Of a stretch of DNA of 39,387 bases, positions 20,763 through 36,022 are shown one piece after another. Position 1 is the stretch's first letter. The number at the start of each line of letters is the position of its first letter. The DNA is from Halobellus captivus. GTDB taxonomy: Archaea; Halobacteriota; Halobacteria; Halobacteriales; Haloferacaceae. The notes below the pieces were generated by a model. That model had not been told where the DNA came from and searched no databases. It was given only the letters and a program-made list of their open reading frames with translations. The stretch covers positions 1 to 39,387 of the forward strand of contig NZ_VJXQ01000003.1 in the NCBI RefSeq assembly GCF_007655485.1. Direction: 5' to 3'. The position numbers were made by a program, and so were the translations under genes.

Positions 20763-21656
20763 ATGCCCGGAATGGACGAGGAGACCGCCGAACTGGTGTT
20801 TTCGGTTCGGGAGGACTCCCGGCGAACGGCGGTGCTGTCCCACCTCGCAAACGGCGCGAAAACCGTGCGAGACGGATCGGACACCGCGGTCAACGCGAAC
20901 GCGAAGGCGTTGCTCTCGGCGTTCGTCGACGACGGACTGGTCGATCGAGACGGAGACACGTACGCGCTGACGGACTTCGGCGAGCGCGTTCACGAGTACG
21001 CGACGCGGGACTGGAACCCCTCGAACAAGGGGACCAAACGCGCCGCGACGTTCGAGACGCTCGCCGACTGCGAATGGCACTGCTCGGCGTGTGAGCTCCC
21101 CAGCTCTCAGCCCGCGAAGGACATCCAGATGCTCCGCAAGGAGGGCTTCGAGTTCGTCCAGAACACCGGGCAGGGGCAGGGCGACTACCGGCACTGCGAG
21201 ACGTGTGCGGACACGACTTTCCATCGAAAGCTCAAGTACCCGTTCCCGACGCAGAAATCCATCACGCGACAGGAGATGCCCAACTCGTTCAAGCGACGCG
21301 TCCGCGACCACTACGACCAGCGCGACGCGTTCGACGGCTCCGCGCCGAGCACGACGCTTGAGGTCGATCACCGCGTGCCGGAAGTTCGGTGGGACGAGTC
21401 CGAAAGCTTCGACTACGACTCGATGAGCGACGAGGAGATCGAATCGCACTTCCAGATCCTCACGCGGACGCACAATCTCCTGAAGAGCCGCAAGTGCGAA
21501 TCCTGCGTCGAGAGCGGTGAGCGTCCGGCGTTTATGGAGATCGAATACTACTACGAGGGCGACGCGAAGTACGACGAGGACGTCGGCTGCGTGGGCTGTG
21601 GGTGGTACAACCCCCACGAGTGGCGCGCAGCGTTGCAAGCGGAGATCGATGGGTAA
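20763..21656 (+). CDS. HNH endonuclease of restriction-enzyme type
   Basis: A 297-residue protein with an N-terminal winged-helix-like region (~1-80, ending LTDFGERVHEY), Cys clusters C103/C107/C110 and C145/C148, and a beta-beta-alpha-metal core. The core shows Asp202-His203 in LEVDHRVPEVRW, Asn238 and Lys241 in RTHNLLKSRKCESC, then C245/C248 and C276/C279 that probably bind zinc. The EVDHR...N-x2-K pattern is that of type II restriction endonucleases of the HNH class. A C5-cytosine methyltransferase lies 3 kb downstream on the same strand, a possible partner. The ATG at 20763 is ~28 nt after a TATA-like GGATTTTC; an ATG at 20772 is an alternative. The target sequence is unknown. Confidence 0.8.
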   Translation: MPGMDEETAELVFSVREDSRRTAVLSHLANGAKTVRDGSDTAVNANAKALLSAFVDDGLVDRDGDTYALTDFGERVHEYATRDWNPSNKGTKRAATFETLADCEWHCSACELPSSQPAKDIQMLRKEGFEFVQNTGQGQGDYRHCETCADTTFHRKLKYPFPTQKSITRQEMPNSFKRRVRDHYDQRDAFDGSAPSTTLEVDHRVPEVRWDESESFDYDSMSDEEIESHFQILTRTHNLLKSRKCESCVESGERPAFMEIEYYYEGDAKYDEDVGCVGCGWYNPHEWRAALQAEIDG

Positions 21657-21769: not shown

Positions 21770-23164
21770 TTAGAGCCGCTCGGCGTCGGGGTCGACGTCG
21801 TGACCGCCGAAGACGCCGTTCGCTTCGAGAAGGTAGTAGATTACGACGTGCGCGAGGAACGCAGCGACGAGTCCGTTCAGCGCCGCGCCCGCCGGACCGG
21901 GTAGCACCTGCGGAGCCGCGAGACCGGGCACGACCTGCCCGGCCGTGAGAACCGCGACGATCGCGCCGACCGCGTATGCGAGGACGCCCGTCCAACGGAC
22001 GTTCGCGAATCGAACGTCACCCATCTTCGGGACGCGCATCCGCCAGCAAAGCAGGAAGTCGGCGATGAGAACGCCGCCGAGCGGCGGGACGTACTGTCCG
22101 AGCGTCGAGAGCCAGGGGAGAAGCAGGCTGTCGGCACCGACGAGCGCGAGAATAATACCGATCGCGCCGCCGACGAGGATGAAGGGCCGCTTCCGATCGA
22201 ACTCGAAGGCCTCGCTCCCGGCGACGCCGAACGCGTAGGCCGCGTTGTCGTTCGTCGTCCAGATGTTGAGAACGAGCGCGATGAGACCGACCGCCGCGAG
22301 TCCCTGCGCGGCGAGCACCTCGTAGAGGTCGCCCGCGGGGGTGACGTCGTAGACCGACCCGCCGACCGCACCGGAGAGAAAGAGGAAGCCGTTGCCGACG
22401 AGGAACGCGATGAGTCCCGCCCAGAAGCCGACGCGCGTGCTACTGGCGAAGCGCGCCCAGTTGGGGGCCTGCGTCCCGCCGCTGATGAACGTGCCGACGA
22501 CGATCGTGACCGCGGCCGCGAAGCCCATTTCGCTGGTCCCGGGGGCACTGAACAGTCCGGAGAACCCGCCGACGTCCTGCACCGCGATACCGATCGAGAG
22601 CAGGCCGACGAGAACGAGAATCGGAACCGCGACGAGCGAGAGCGTCTCCATTCCCTCGTAGCCGAAGTACGCCGTCGCGAGGTGCAGAACACCCCACAGC
22701 AGGATGAGCGCCGCCGTGAACGTCGGCGTGTCGAGGCCGAAGAACGTCGCCGTCGGGATCGCGACCATCGGAATCGTGACACCGAACCAGCCGACCTGCG
22801 TGCCGCCGAGAATGAAGTCCGCGAACTTCGCCCCCCACCGCCCGAAGCTGTATCGCGCGAGCAGGACCGTCGTCAGCCCCGCCTTCGCGGCGATGCCGCA
22901 CAGCGTCGCGACGTAGACGCCCAAGATCGCGTAGCCGACGGCCATCGCCGTCAGCATCGGTCCGAATCCCATCGCCGCGCCGACCTCAGCACCGGCCCAG
23001 ATCGTGCCCGCGAAGAACACGAAGCCGAGCAGGACAGCCGAGATGCTCACTAACCCCTTCCGCTCGGTGCCGGGAACGTGATCGAGCGGGTAGTCCGGGT
23101 CGGGTAGTTGCTCGTCGCCGAACACGAACCGTCGCCACGCGGACGTGTCGTCTTCTGTTGCCAT
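21770..23164 (-). CDS. NCS1-family nucleobase permease (cytosine permease-like)
   Basis: A 464-residue integral membrane protein with about twelve hydrophobic segments and a charged cytoplasmic N-terminus (GDEQLPDPDYPLDHVPGTERKG). The NCS1 pattern is visible: GFVFFAGTIWAGAEVGAAMG in the first helix, an early RYSFGRWGAKFADF loop, and DNAAYAFGVAGSEAFEFDRKRP in the second half. NCS1 proteins take up cytosine, purines, hydantoins or thiamin with H+ or Na+. Cytosine or a methylated cytosine is suggested by the divergent CodA-type deaminase 124 bp away. A strong TATA-like TTTTATAAAAA sits ~27 nt before the ATG, so the message is nearly leaderless. Confidence 0.9.
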   Translation of the reverse strand: MATEDDTSAWRRFVFGDEQLPDPDYPLDHVPGTERKGLVSISAVLLGFVFFAGTIWAGAEVGAAMGFGPMLTAMAVGYAILGVYVATLCGIAAKAGLTTVLLARYSFGRWGAKFADFILGGTQVGWFGVTIPMVAIPTATFFGLDTPTFTAALILLWGVLHLATAYFGYEGMETLSLVAVPILVLVGLLSIGIAVQDVGGFSGLFSAPGTSEMGFAAAVTIVVGTFISGGTQAPNWARFASSTRVGFWAGLIAFLVGNGFLFLSGAVGGSVYDVTPAGDLYEVLAAQGLAAVGLIALVLNIWTTNDNAAYAFGVAGSEAFEFDRKRPFILVGGAIGIILALVGADSLLLPWLSTLGQYVPPLGGVLIADFLLCWRMRVPKMGDVRFANVRWTGVLAYAVGAIVAVLTAGQVVPGLAAPQVLPGPAGAALNGLVAAFLAHVVIYYLLEANGVFGGHDVDPDAERL

Positions 23165-23288
23165 TGGTCACCGCTTTCGTCGTGTTTTTATAAAATTGGG
23201 GATGTCGACCACATTTGTTGTCACAGATCGGTAGCGACGGCGACGGAGAGCAAAAATTAACCGTCGAACGCCCGCGTCTCCGACTGAG
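23165..23288. promoter_or_regulatory. Divergent promoter region of permease and deaminase genes
   Basis: This 124-bp spacer carries a minus-strand TATA-like TTTTATAAAAA (about 23189-23199) for the permease and a plus-strand AAAAATTAACC (about 23252-23262) ~31 nt before the deaminase ATG. The back-to-back arrangement allows shared control by one regulator bound between the two boxes. Confidence 0.65.
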
Positions 23289-24572
23289 ATGTCCGACTAC
23301 ATCGTCACGAACGGCCGGACGATCGACGGCGACCCCGTAGACGTCGAAATTCGGGGCGGGACCGTCGAGACGATCGCGCCTGCGGGATCGGGAGATACCG
23401 GCGCGTTCGACAAGGACCGGCGGTACGACGCCGACGGCAGACTGCTCACGCCGCCGCTCATCGAGCCGCACGTCCACCTCGACGCGACGGGCACGGCGGG
23501 CGATCCGTCCTGGAACGACAGCGGGACGCTCGCCGAAGGAATCGAGGTGTGGGCCGAGTATAAGCAGGATATCACCGTCGACGATATCCTCGAACGAGCC
23601 ACGAAAACCGTCGAGTGGTACGCCGCCCACGGCGTGACGCGCGTGCGGACTCACGCCGACACGACTGAGCCGTCGCTGACGACCGTCGAGGCGCTGGTGG
23701 AGTTGAAATCGAGGGTGTCGGACCTCGTCGACCTGCAGGTCGTCGCCTTTCCCCAGGACGGCATCCTCACCGACGGGTCACACGAGGACCTGCTCCGGGA
23801 GGCGGCCGGGATGGGTGTCGATCTGATCGGCGGAATCCCGCACAACGAGTACACTCGCGAGGACGGCGTCAAGAGCGTCGAGATCGCGTGCGATCTGGCC
23901 GAACAACACGACCTCCCGTTGGATCTCCACATCGACGAGACGGACGACCCGGGATCGCGGTTCACCGAGGTGCTCGCCAGCGAGGCGCTCAAGCGCGGAA
24001 TCGGGGATCGCGTGACCGCGAGTCACACGACCGCGACGCACTCGTATAACAACGCCTACGCGGACAAACTGATCTCGATGCTCGCCGACAGCGGCGCGTC
24101 GGTCGTGACGAACCCGCCGGACAACTCCGTGTTGCAGGGCGCGTACGACGACTATCCCCGTCGGCGCGGCCACACCCGAATCGACGAACTCCGAGAGGCG
24201 GGCGTGACGGTCGGCATCGGTCACGACTCCGTGCTCGACCCGTGGTATCACTACGGCGTCGCCGACCCGCTCGACGCGGCGTTCATTCTCGCGCACTACG
24301 CCCATATGGCGGGCCGCGGGGACGTCGACGTGCTCTGGGAGATGCTCACCGAGGCGAACGCCGAGATCTTCGGCGCGGACGGCTACGGCCTGCGCGAAGG
24401 AGGCGAAGGATCGCTAGTCGTCTACGACAGCCCCGACGGGTTCAACGCGCTCCGGAGGCAGGCACCCCGAACGCTGGTCCTCCGAGACGGCGAACCGATC
24501 GCCGAGACCGAACCGAGTTCGACGACAGTCCACAGAGCGGACGGGCCGACAACGATCGATTTCAAGCGGTAG
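23289..24572 (+). CDS. CodA-type amidohydrolase: cytosine or 5-methylcytosine deaminase
   Basis: A metal-dependent deaminase of 427 residues, the same length class as E. coli CodA and alignable end to end. All catalytic residues fall at E. coli numbers: His61 and His63 (EPHVHLD), Gln156 (AFPQ), His214 and Glu217 (LHIDE), His246 (TASHTTATHSYN), Asp313 and Trp319. Residue 314 is Ser (GHDSVLDPWY; codon 24228-24230) instead of the CodA Asp314. Loss of that Asp is the known mark of enzymes that accept 5-methylcytosine, giving thymine. The next gene, 70 bp downstream, is a C5-cytosine DNA methyltransferase. The family is certain; the substrate is inferred. Confidence 0.93.
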   Translation: MSDYIVTNGRTIDGDPVDVEIRGGTVETIAPAGSGDTGAFDKDRRYDADGRLLTPPLIEPHVHLDATGTAGDPSWNDSGTLAEGIEVWAEYKQDITVDDILERATKTVEWYAAHGVTRVRTHADTTEPSLTTVEALVELKSRVSDLVDLQVVAFPQDGILTDGSHEDLLREAAGMGVDLIGGIPHNEYTREDGVKSVEIACDLAEQHDLPLDLHIDETDDPGSRFTEVLASEALKRGIGDRVTASHTTATHSYNNAYADKLISMLADSGASVVTNPPDNSVLQGAYDDYPRRRGHTRIDELREAGVTVGIGHDSVLDPWYHYGVADPLDAAFILAHYAHMAGRGDVDVLWEMLTEANAEIFGADGYGLREGGEGSLVVYDSPDGFNALRRQAPRTLVLRDGEPIAETEPSSTTVHRADGPTTIDFKR

Positions 24573-24642
24573 TCCCGTTCTCCCCCACCGGCACCCCGAG
24601 GTAATTAAATACGACCGGAAACGACACCTCAAAAGAAACCGA

Positions 24643-25716
24643 ATGCCGGACTTCGATCTCGATCGCTCGTCGATCACGGTGCTTGATCTGTTCTGCGGCG
24701 GCGGCGGCCTCTCGGAGGGCTTCCTCCAGGCCGGATACGACGTCGTCGCGGGCGTCGACGCCAACGAGGACTTTCTGGCGACGTACGAGCACAACCACGA
24801 GGACGCGCTCGCCATCGTCGCGGACCTCTCCGAAGTCGGCCCCGAGGAGTTCTTCGCGGAGTACCCGATCGAGAGAGGCGAAATCGACGTCGTGATCGGC
24901 GGCCCGCCGTGCAAGGGGTTCAGCATCGCGGGTCATCGCAACCCCGACGACGAGCGCAACTACCTCGTCGGCAACTTCATCGACTTCGTCGAATTCATCC
25001 AGCCCGCGGCGTTCGTGATGGAGAACGTCCCCGGGATCAAGTCGATGGAAGGCGGCGACACCCTGCGGGCGATACTGGAGGGCTTCGAGCGCGCGGGCTA
25101 CGAGAAGACCGCCTACGAGACGCTGAACGCCGCCGACTACGGCGTGCCGCAGAACCGCCGCCGCGTGATCTTCCAGGGGCGGCGCGACGGGTCGCTGCCG
25201 ACGTACCCCGAGCGGACTCACGGCCCCTCGAAGCAGGCGACGCTGACCGGAAAACGGCTGCAGCCGCACGTGACCGTCGAGGAGGCGCTCTTGGAGCGGA
25301 ACGGAGAGGACCGAGCCATCGAGGAGCTTCCGAACCACGACGAGACGGATCACTCCGATGACATGGTCGAGCGGATTTCCGCGGTCGAGCCCGGTGAGAG
25401 CCTCTATGAGAGTTACGGGGACAGCTGGCGGCGACTCCCGCGCGATGAGCCCTCGATCACGGTCAAAGAGAACCACAACGCGCCGTTCATCCACCCCGTC
25501 GAGGACCGGGTCGGGACCGTCCGCGAGTGCGCGGTTCTCCAGTCGTTCCCCGACGACTACGTGTTTCAGGGACCGAAGAGCACGCAGTTGAAGGTCGTCG
25601 GTAACGCCGTTCCGCCGGGACTCTCGAAGGCGATTGCGGAGGCGCTGGCCGACGACCTAGCGGCGATGGAACGGAACGCCGCCGCTGGCGGGAGTGCCGT
25701 CGCCGACGCGGAGTGA
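24643..25716 (+). CDS. C5-cytosine DNA methyltransferase
   Basis: Transfers methyl from S-adenosylmethionine to C5 of cytosine in DNA. The 357-residue protein has the motifs in canonical order: I (LDLFCGGGGLSEGF), IV with the catalytic Cys (GGPPCKGFSIAG), VI (ENVPGI), VIII (QNRRRVIFQGRR), and IX/X (VVGNAVPPGLSKAIAEAL) after a target-recognition region (~190-300). It has its own TATA-like TAATTAAATA ~35 nt before the ATG, so it need not depend on the deaminase promoter. It could be half of a restriction-modification pair with the HNH gene at 20763 or an orphan enzyme. The stop codon is in a 19-bp tandem repeat. Confidence 0.95.
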   Translation: MPDFDLDRSSITVLDLFCGGGGLSEGFLQAGYDVVAGVDANEDFLATYEHNHEDALAIVADLSEVGPEEFFAEYPIERGEIDVVIGGPPCKGFSIAGHRNPDDERNYLVGNFIDFVEFIQPAAFVMENVPGIKSMEGGDTLRAILEGFERAGYEKTAYETLNAADYGVPQNRRRVIFQGRRDGSLPTYPERTHGPSKQATLTGKRLQPHVTVEEALLERNGEDRAIEELPNHDETDHSDDMVERISAVEPGESLYESYGDSWRRLPRDEPSITVKENHNAPFIHPVEDRVGTVRECAVLQSFPDDYVFQGPKSTQLKVVGNAVPPGLSKAIAEALADDLAAMERNAAAGGSAVADAE

Positions 25717-25761
25717 CGTCGCTGACGAGGAGTGACGTCGCTGACGAGGAATGATCTTGCC
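25705..25761. repeat. 19-bp tandem repeat across the methyltransferase stop codon
   Basis: Copies lie at 25705-25723 (GACGCGGAGTGACGTCGCT), 25724-25742 (one mismatch) and 25743-25761 (about five mismatches). The TGA stop (25714-25716) lies in copy 1 and is repeated in copies 2 and 3. Confidence 0.85.
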
Positions 25762-25811
25762 AACGTCGTGTACTCCGAGCGCCGCTCTTTTCACGAACAG
25801 TACTGGATAGT

Positions 25812-25840
25812 GTGTGCGCACACTACTCTTATGTGGTGTG
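25812..25840. promoter_or_regulatory. Palindromic operator and promoter of the toxin-antitoxin operon
   Basis: A perfect 12-bp palindrome GTGTGCGCACAC (25812-25823) lies directly before the TATA-like CTCTTATG (25827-25834), and a further GTGTG half-site follows (25836-25840). The box is ~30 nt before the antitoxin ATG. Binding of the antitoxin or its complex here would block the promoter, the usual autorepression of such operons. Confidence 0.55.
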
Positions 25841-25857
25841 CAGTCTTGGGTTTAGGT

Positions 25858-26109
25858 ATGAGTAGTGAAAGCGTCGACTCCGAGAGTAAGGTCTCGGGGA
25901 ACCAAGCGAACATCCCGGCCCGCATCCGTCGCGAGCTCGACATCGATGACGGCGACAAACTCCGGTGGCAGATCCAAGGAGATGGCACGCTCCGCGTCCG
26001 GGTCGTCCAGCAGCGCAGCGGCACGTTCAGCGAGTTCGACGGCTACGATGGCGACGAGGAGACCGACGTCACAACCGAACACGACGCGTGGGGCGTCGAC
26101 GTCGAATAA
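25858..26109 (+). CDS. AbrB/MazE-type antitoxin (VapB-like)
   Basis: An 83-residue protein whose residues ~8-50 form a SpoVT/AbrB swapped-hairpin DNA-binding domain (SKVSGNQANIPARIRRELDIDDGDKLRWQI, seen in overlapping parts). An acidic tail follows that would wrap the toxin. The stop codon TAA is immediately followed by the ATG of the PIN-domain gene, so the pair is an operon with coupled translation. I chose the ATG at 25858, ~30 nt after the TATA-like box; the longer open frame from 25732 runs through the promoter. A role as antitoxin is inferred from domain and neighbour. Confidence 0.82.
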   Translation: MSSESVDSESKVSGNQANIPARIRRELDIDDGDKLRWQIQGDGTLRVRVVQQRSGTFSEFDGYDGDEETDVTTEHDAWGVDVE

Positions 26110-26544
26110 ATGCCGCGCGCACTCGTCGATACGACTGTCCTCTTCGCCGCCGCCTACCGTCGCGACAGCCTACACGAGGAGGCCTTGTCCATCCTCAGAT
26201 GCATCGACAGCGGCGCACTCCCGGAGGCAGTCGTCCTCGATTACGTGCTTGCTGAGACGTTAAACGGGCTGACGACCCACGCCGGACACGGCGCCGCGGC
26301 GGACTTTCTTGACCGCGTAGAAGAGAATTCACAGTTCCACATCGACTTTCTTACTGGGGACGCGTTTGCGACGGGGAAAGCGCTCTTCCGGCAGTATGAA
26401 GCCATCTCGTTCGTAGACGCCTGCATTATTGCCTATATGCAAACTGAGGGGCTTGGCTACCTTTACTCGTTTGACGACGACTTTGACGCCGCCGAGGACG
26501 TCTTCCGGCTCGATACCCCAAACAATCCGTATCAGCCGGAGTGA
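26110..26544 (+). CDS. PIN-domain ribonuclease toxin (VapC-like)
   Basis: A 144-residue PIN-domain protein. The acidic metal-binding residues of the family are visible: Asp7 (LVDTTVLF), Glu49 (VLAETLNGL), Asp103 (FVDACIIAY) and an Asp cluster at 122-126 (SFDDDFD). VapC toxins cut tRNA or rRNA when free of their antitoxin. The gene starts directly after the antitoxin stop with no spacer. Base composition is somewhat less GC-rich than the flanking metabolic genes, consistent with a mobile origin. Confidence 0.85.
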   Translation: MPRALVDTTVLFAAAYRRDSLHEEALSILRCIDSGALPEAVVLDYVLAETLNGLTTHAGHGAAADFLDRVEENSQFHIDFLTGDAFATGKALFRQYEAISFVDACIIAYMQTEGLGYLYSFDDDFDAAEDVFRLDTPNNPYQPE

Positions 26545-35341: not shown

Positions 35342-36022
35342 ATGGCCATCGAGGACCGCGACGACGCCTACCTGATCACTCACGCGCTCGCGAAAGACAC
35401 GCTCTTGCGACTCCGAGACGTCGAAACCGAACAGGTCGCGTTTCGGAAGGGACTCGTCAAACTCGGACGGATTTGCGGCTACGAGATCATCGACGGCGCG
35501 ATGGAAACCGAGTACGTCACCGTCCAGACACCGCTGACGGAGACGACTGGCGAGCGCGTCAAAGGGCTCGACGACGTCGTGATCGTCAACGTCCTCCGCG
35601 CGGCGACGCCGTTCGTCGAAGGGCTGCTGAAGGCGTTTCCGCGTGCGAAACAGGGCGTCATCAGCGCCGGACGCGACGAGACCGCCGGGATGGACGACGA
35701 AGGGAGTTTCCCGATCAGCATCGACTACGTGAAACTACCGGAAATCACCGAAGATGACACCGTTATCGTGGCCGACCCGATGCTCGCGACCGGGTCGACG
35801 ATGTGCACGGTCCTCGATCACGTCCTCGACGCGGCCGACGTCGAACCCGCCGACCTGTTCGTGCTCTCGGCCGTCTCGGCACCCGACGGACTGCTCAGAG
35901 TCGGCGACGCGTTCCCCGATGCGGATCTCCTGACCGTCGCCATCGACGATCACCTCGACGACGACGGATACATCATTCCGGGGCTGGGCGACGCCGGGGA
36001 TCGAGCCTTCCGTACGACGTAA
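35342..36022 (+). CDS. upp: Uracil phosphoribosyltransferase
   Basis: Salvages uracil: uracil plus PRPP gives UMP. This 226-residue protein has the PRPP-binding loop [14 protein letters not shown], the flexible-loop region [20 protein letters not shown], and the uracil-binding C-terminal [13 protein letters not shown]. It follows the cupin gene by 1 bp. It would take up the uracil made if the CodA-type enzyme at 23289 acts on cytosine; it would not use thymine. Confidence 0.95.

Follow-up and report, generated by a model that had tools for sequence, protein, structure and literature searches.

Does a haloarchaeal cytosine deaminase accept 5-methylcytosine, and is it functionally tied to the DNA methyltransferase encoded beside it? 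This question arises from a stretch of 39,387 nucleotides of Halobellus captivus DNA, hereafter the window, where a CodA-type deaminase with serine in place of the aspartate of E. coli CodA at position 314 is encoded just upstream of a predicted C5-cytosine methyltransferase, and where the original prediction saw a probable 5-methylcytosine deaminase next to a DNA methyltransferase of the type that forms 5-methylcytosine.

The CodA-type deaminase and its residue 314

The ORF at 23289..24572 (+ strand), named codA here on the basis of family match and alignment, encodes a CodA-type amidohydrolase of 427 aa, i.e. a predicted cytosine deaminase. The protein retrieved CodA structures with E = 1e-112 in a search against structures, is 43% identical to E. 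coli CodA over the full length and matches the family NF005748, also over the full length, at 438.1 bits for a cut-off of 438; against NF006685, it scores 437.5 bits, under the cut-off of 483 for this family. Following the numbering of the E. coli CodA crystal structure (the E. coli genomic number being one higher), the residues H61, H63, Q156, H214, E217, H246, D313 and W319 are found unshifted in an alignment to CodA of E. coli MG1655. As judged from sequence, this is a full-length CodA-type deaminase with all metal and catalytic residues kept. Residue 314 is serine and its codon, at 24228-24230, reads TCC. In 35 out of 35 representative homologues aligned from the haloarchaeal clade, which are 60-88% identical, neither this serine nor any catalytic residue varies; such conservation excludes a sequencing error or chance and suggests that the residue matters.

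PMC6186785, with reference to Hitchcock 2014, presents position 314 as the 5-methylcytosine discriminator in CodA: 5-methylcytosine is barely used by CodA, the replacement of Asp by Ala at this position confers activity on it, and a 5-methylcytosine deaminase from Klebsiella has Ser there. The role ascribed to residue 314 by the original prediction is thus borne out according to this paper, and the unshifted catalytic residues as well as the serine codon, which it had also put forward, are confirmed by the alignment. Serine was further seen at position 314 in a homologue 88% identical to the Klebsiella structure 4R7W, as well as in 1r9z, an E. coli CodA structure that bears the name cytosine deaminase and the chain of which reads GHDSVFDPWY. 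Since the serine is the same as in the Klebsiella enzyme and occupies the position described there as discriminating, it is plausible that the window CodA accepts 5-methylcytosine and converts it to thymine. Near the pocket, the haloarchaeal clade (N186, I215, P277, D278, V281 and L or M at 316) is unlike both the E. coli and the Klebsiella references, so that the substrate preference may differ from theirs in a way that is not readable from the residues. N4-methylcytosine was set aside as a candidate, being no substrate of E. coli CodA according to PMC11898903.

A probable restriction-modification pair around the deaminase genes

The gene downstream of codA (24643..25716, + strand) starts exactly 70 bp after the codA stop and encodes a protein with the motifs DLFCGGGG, GPPCKGF, ENVPG and PQNRRR, by which it is predicted to be a DNA C5-cytosine methyltransferase, probably the modification member of a type II restriction-modification (R-M) pair. 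The probable restriction half is a type II restriction-enzyme-like protein encoded at 20763..21656 (+ strand, start at 20763 or 20772), matched by the PADLOC model REase_II (E = 8e-28) and by PF05315 ICEA (E = 1.6e-8). An HNH-like motif, EVDHR...NLLKSR, is invariant in this protein; the AlphaFold model has a mean pLDDT of 62, low over the HNH-like region, and a sequence search for relatives among solved structures returned none. These two genes probably constitute a type II R-M pair, because the endonuclease-like and methyltransferase genes are linked and, in four genomes, adjacent without codBA. In three Halobellus species devoid of clade codA (G126, G276 and G095), the gene order is lipA - restriction-like gene - methyltransferase - serB - serA, with 390-498 bp and no codBA between the restriction-like gene and the methyltransferase; in a genome of another genus (G109), the two genes are adjacent without the flanking genes or codBA.

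The divergent codB and codA lie between the restriction-like gene and the methyltransferase in the window and in five other Halobellus genomes, and in H. salinus the methyltransferase has been separated from codA by a rearrangement. In the Halobellus tree, genomes with codBA are placed on both sides of those lacking it, with weak support (72 and 53), so that codBA may have been either gained or lost at this site. As codBA is retained at this place in five Halobellus species besides that of the window, some selective reason is possible. In the codBA-less Halobellus, the space between the restriction-like gene and the methyltransferase is taken up by a short winged-helix-like ORF, some 70-77 residues long (L153, L154 and L155), which could regulate the R-M pair. 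In the window, a MazE/AbrB-like and PIN-domain pair, resembling a toxin-antitoxin module, is encoded between the methyltransferase and serB (25732-26544, + strand); no counterpart turned up in the other Halobellus regions with which the window was compared.

The 70-bp gap between codA and the methyltransferase (24573..24642, + strand) carries a TATA-like element, TTAAATAC, which is conserved ~35-40 bp upstream of the methyltransferase start in 10/10 Halobellus copies. As this element is kept with or without codBA, the methyltransferase is likely transcribed separately from codA. Considering distribution, the co-occurrence of clade CodA with any C5 methyltransferase (PF00145) was surveyed over 391 genomes of the class. 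Clade CodA is present in 33 of them, 11 of which encode a PF00145 methyltransferase and 22 none; outside Halobellus, a C5 methyltransferase is encoded in 4/25 genomes with clade CodA vs. 174/353 genomes without it (Fisher p = 0.0014, indicative only because the genomes are related). No positive association of Ser314 CodA with a C5 methyltransferase thus appeared over the 391 genomes. Ser314 is found clade-wide regardless of the methyltransferase, which is the very pattern that the original prediction had itself named as contradicting it. While that prediction was right about the type of enzyme encoded 70 bp downstream, as the gap length and the motifs attest, and while its proposal of 5-methylcytosine acceptance is reasonable given the serine shared with the Klebsiella enzyme, the proposed tie of Ser314 and of codA to the methyltransferase does not withstand this distribution, nor the probable pairing of the methyltransferase with the restriction-like gene, its occurrence without codBA and its own TATA-like element. 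The methyltransferase very likely adjoins codA by position only.

Probable nucleobase salvage and competing readings

On its other side, codA is flanked by the divergent codB (21770..23164, - strand), a predicted NCS1 cytosine permease scoring 400 bits against the NCBIfam equivalog NF008241 (cut-off of 326 bits). Neither this permease gene nor the restriction-like ORF figured in the original prediction. This divergent order recurs across haloarchaea and codB adjoins codA in most members of the clade. The intergenic region (23165..23288) contains an element, TTTTTATAAAATTGGGGAT, similar to one found in several other Halobellus genomes, and may possibly act as a divergent promoter. In one genome (G348), codB and codA are 1.9 kb apart (L054:7030-8938) vs. 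the usual ~0.12 kb, a gap likely holding an inserted gene. Further along the window, upp (35342..36022, + strand) encodes a uracil phosphoribosyltransferase, the enzyme type converting uracil to UMP. Regarding thymine, no thymidine phosphorylase of PF00591 type stands out in the genome, the two matches being TrpD-like by eye; a thymidine kinase and phosphorylases of PNP/UDP type are present, so that thymine might conceivably be used. Among other haloarchaea, some 10-12 genomes have codBA next to genes for molybdenum hydroxylase subunits resembling xanthine dehydrogenase, an amidohydrolase resembling hydantoinase or allantoinase, and an NCS2 permease of xanthine type, a setting which is a nucleobase-breakdown island; no such island was found around codA in Halobellus.

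Taken as a whole, these sequence data point, with somewhat more confidence than doubt, to a nucleobase-salvage deaminase working with CodB, which would deaminate cytosine to uracil and, probably, 5-methylcytosine to thymine as well, and which is lodged inside a separate R-M locus. In this scheme, CodB would import free bases of the cytosine type and CodA would hydrolyse their 4-amino group by means of the standard CodA metal centre, the uracil formed from cytosine being presumably turned into UMP by Upp. Free 5-methylcytosine, originating from tRNA or rRNA turnover or from DNA taken up, would probably be deaminated to thymine by the same enzyme, because the bulky Asp314, next to position 5 of the ring, has given way to serine. 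The C5 methyltransferase would fulfil a separate function together with the product of the 20763-21656 gene, and codB-codA would lie between these two genes by chance. 

Some credence, though clearly limited, can be given to an ordinary cytosine deaminase, in which Ser314 would only relax the pocket, cytosine being the only physiological substrate, with negligible turnover of 5-methylcytosine. A permease above the cytosine-permease equivalog cut-off, the presence of upp in the window, the naming of a Ser314 structure of E. coli CodA as cytosine deaminase and the lack of an obvious thymine-specific route in the genome all agree with this reading, against which stand the discriminating role of position 314 reported in PMC6186785 and the retention of serine in 35/35 homologues, suggesting that the residue matters. 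It is rather doubtful that the main substrate is another base, either isoguanine or a further modified pyrimidine, handled in a nucleobase-breakdown pathway: the E. coli codA annotation, cytosine/isoguanine deaminase, and the breakdown islands of other haloarchaea would fit, but CodB scores as a cytosine permease and Halobellus codA is found outside such islands. The original proposal, a deaminase dedicated to 5-methylcytosine and coupled in function to the methyltransferase next to it, appears very improbable. The same-strand adjacency at 70 bp, which recurs in five other Halobellus genomes, speaks for it and is outweighed by the clade-wide serine, the survey counts and the probable R-M setting of the methyltransferase, which also occurs without codBA and keeps its own TATA-like element; besides, CodA-type enzymes act on free bases and not on DNA. 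Just as slender is the chance that the haloarchaeal enzymes are a clade of archaeal 5-methylcytosine deaminases, and that Halobellus keeps their genes between the R-M genes because the salvage of methylated bases from DNA breakdown benefits the R-M locus.

Should the Ser314 enzyme of the favoured salvage reading indeed accept 5-methylcytosine, it would provide an archaeal example of the breakdown of free 5-methylcytosine, and the whole haloarchaeal clade would offer a ready test set for the selectivity of residue 314 and its neighbours. In any case, with codBA located inside a probable R-M pair that exists without it, this locus cautions against deducing function from adjacency.

Relation to known systems

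Bacterial CodA sequences for comparison were drawn from plasmid records. In a tree built from a quick search, where several deep branches are weak, the haloarchaeal CodA sequences fall together in a single group, and the Klebsiella-type enzymes are placed elsewhere, close to E. coli CodA; on this topology, the window CodA falls outside the clade of Klebsiella-type 5-methylcytosine deaminases, represented by Kpn00632, and shares with them the loss of Asp at position 314. Besides Kpn00632, the other two named bacterial 5-methylcytosine deaminases are Rsp0341 and NCgl0075. Among the relatives encountered, a CodA-like paralogue in which residue 314 is Cys (GQDC) is encoded convergently with Ser314 codA in several loci (L064:10308-11549, L067:7731-8969, L072:10335-11447, L076:10289-11569 and L087:9946-11166), and other haloarchaeal CodA-like proteins without Gln156 (L083, L088 and L090-L093), mostly with Asp or Asn and in one case with Ser at 314, probably use another substrate. 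A Klebsiella-type Ser314 CodA also occurs in a codB-PucR-codA cassette (L163:1441-5176, H61-H89) at least 99% identical across 29 Enterobacterales plasmid records.

With E. coli CodA (PDB 1K6W), the window protein shares 43% full-length identity, the metal and catalytic residues and a codB partner; it differs by Ser314 instead of Asp314, by N186, I215, P277-D278, V281 and L316 nearby, and by a divergent codB, whereas E. coli codB is in one operon with codA. With Klebsiella Kpn00632 (PDB 4R7W/4R85/4R88), it has in common Ser314, the CodA fold and the catalytic residues, but the Klebsiella type, which belongs to a separate clade, displays Q312, G251 and T-E-S-I-H at 277-281, against H312, H251 and P-D-N-S-V in the window protein. 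The uncharacterised Ser314 homologues of Meiothermus/Calidithermus and alphaproteobacteria (L040-L045) exhibit the signatures GHDSV(M/L)DPWY and PDN(A/S)VL as in the window, yet at 46-49% identity and on another branch. As for type II R-M systems combining a C5 methyltransferase with an endonuclease of ICEA/REase_II type, the window resembles them in its linked endonuclease-like and methyltransferase genes, adjacent in four genomes, and departs from them in that its putative pair is split by codB-codA.
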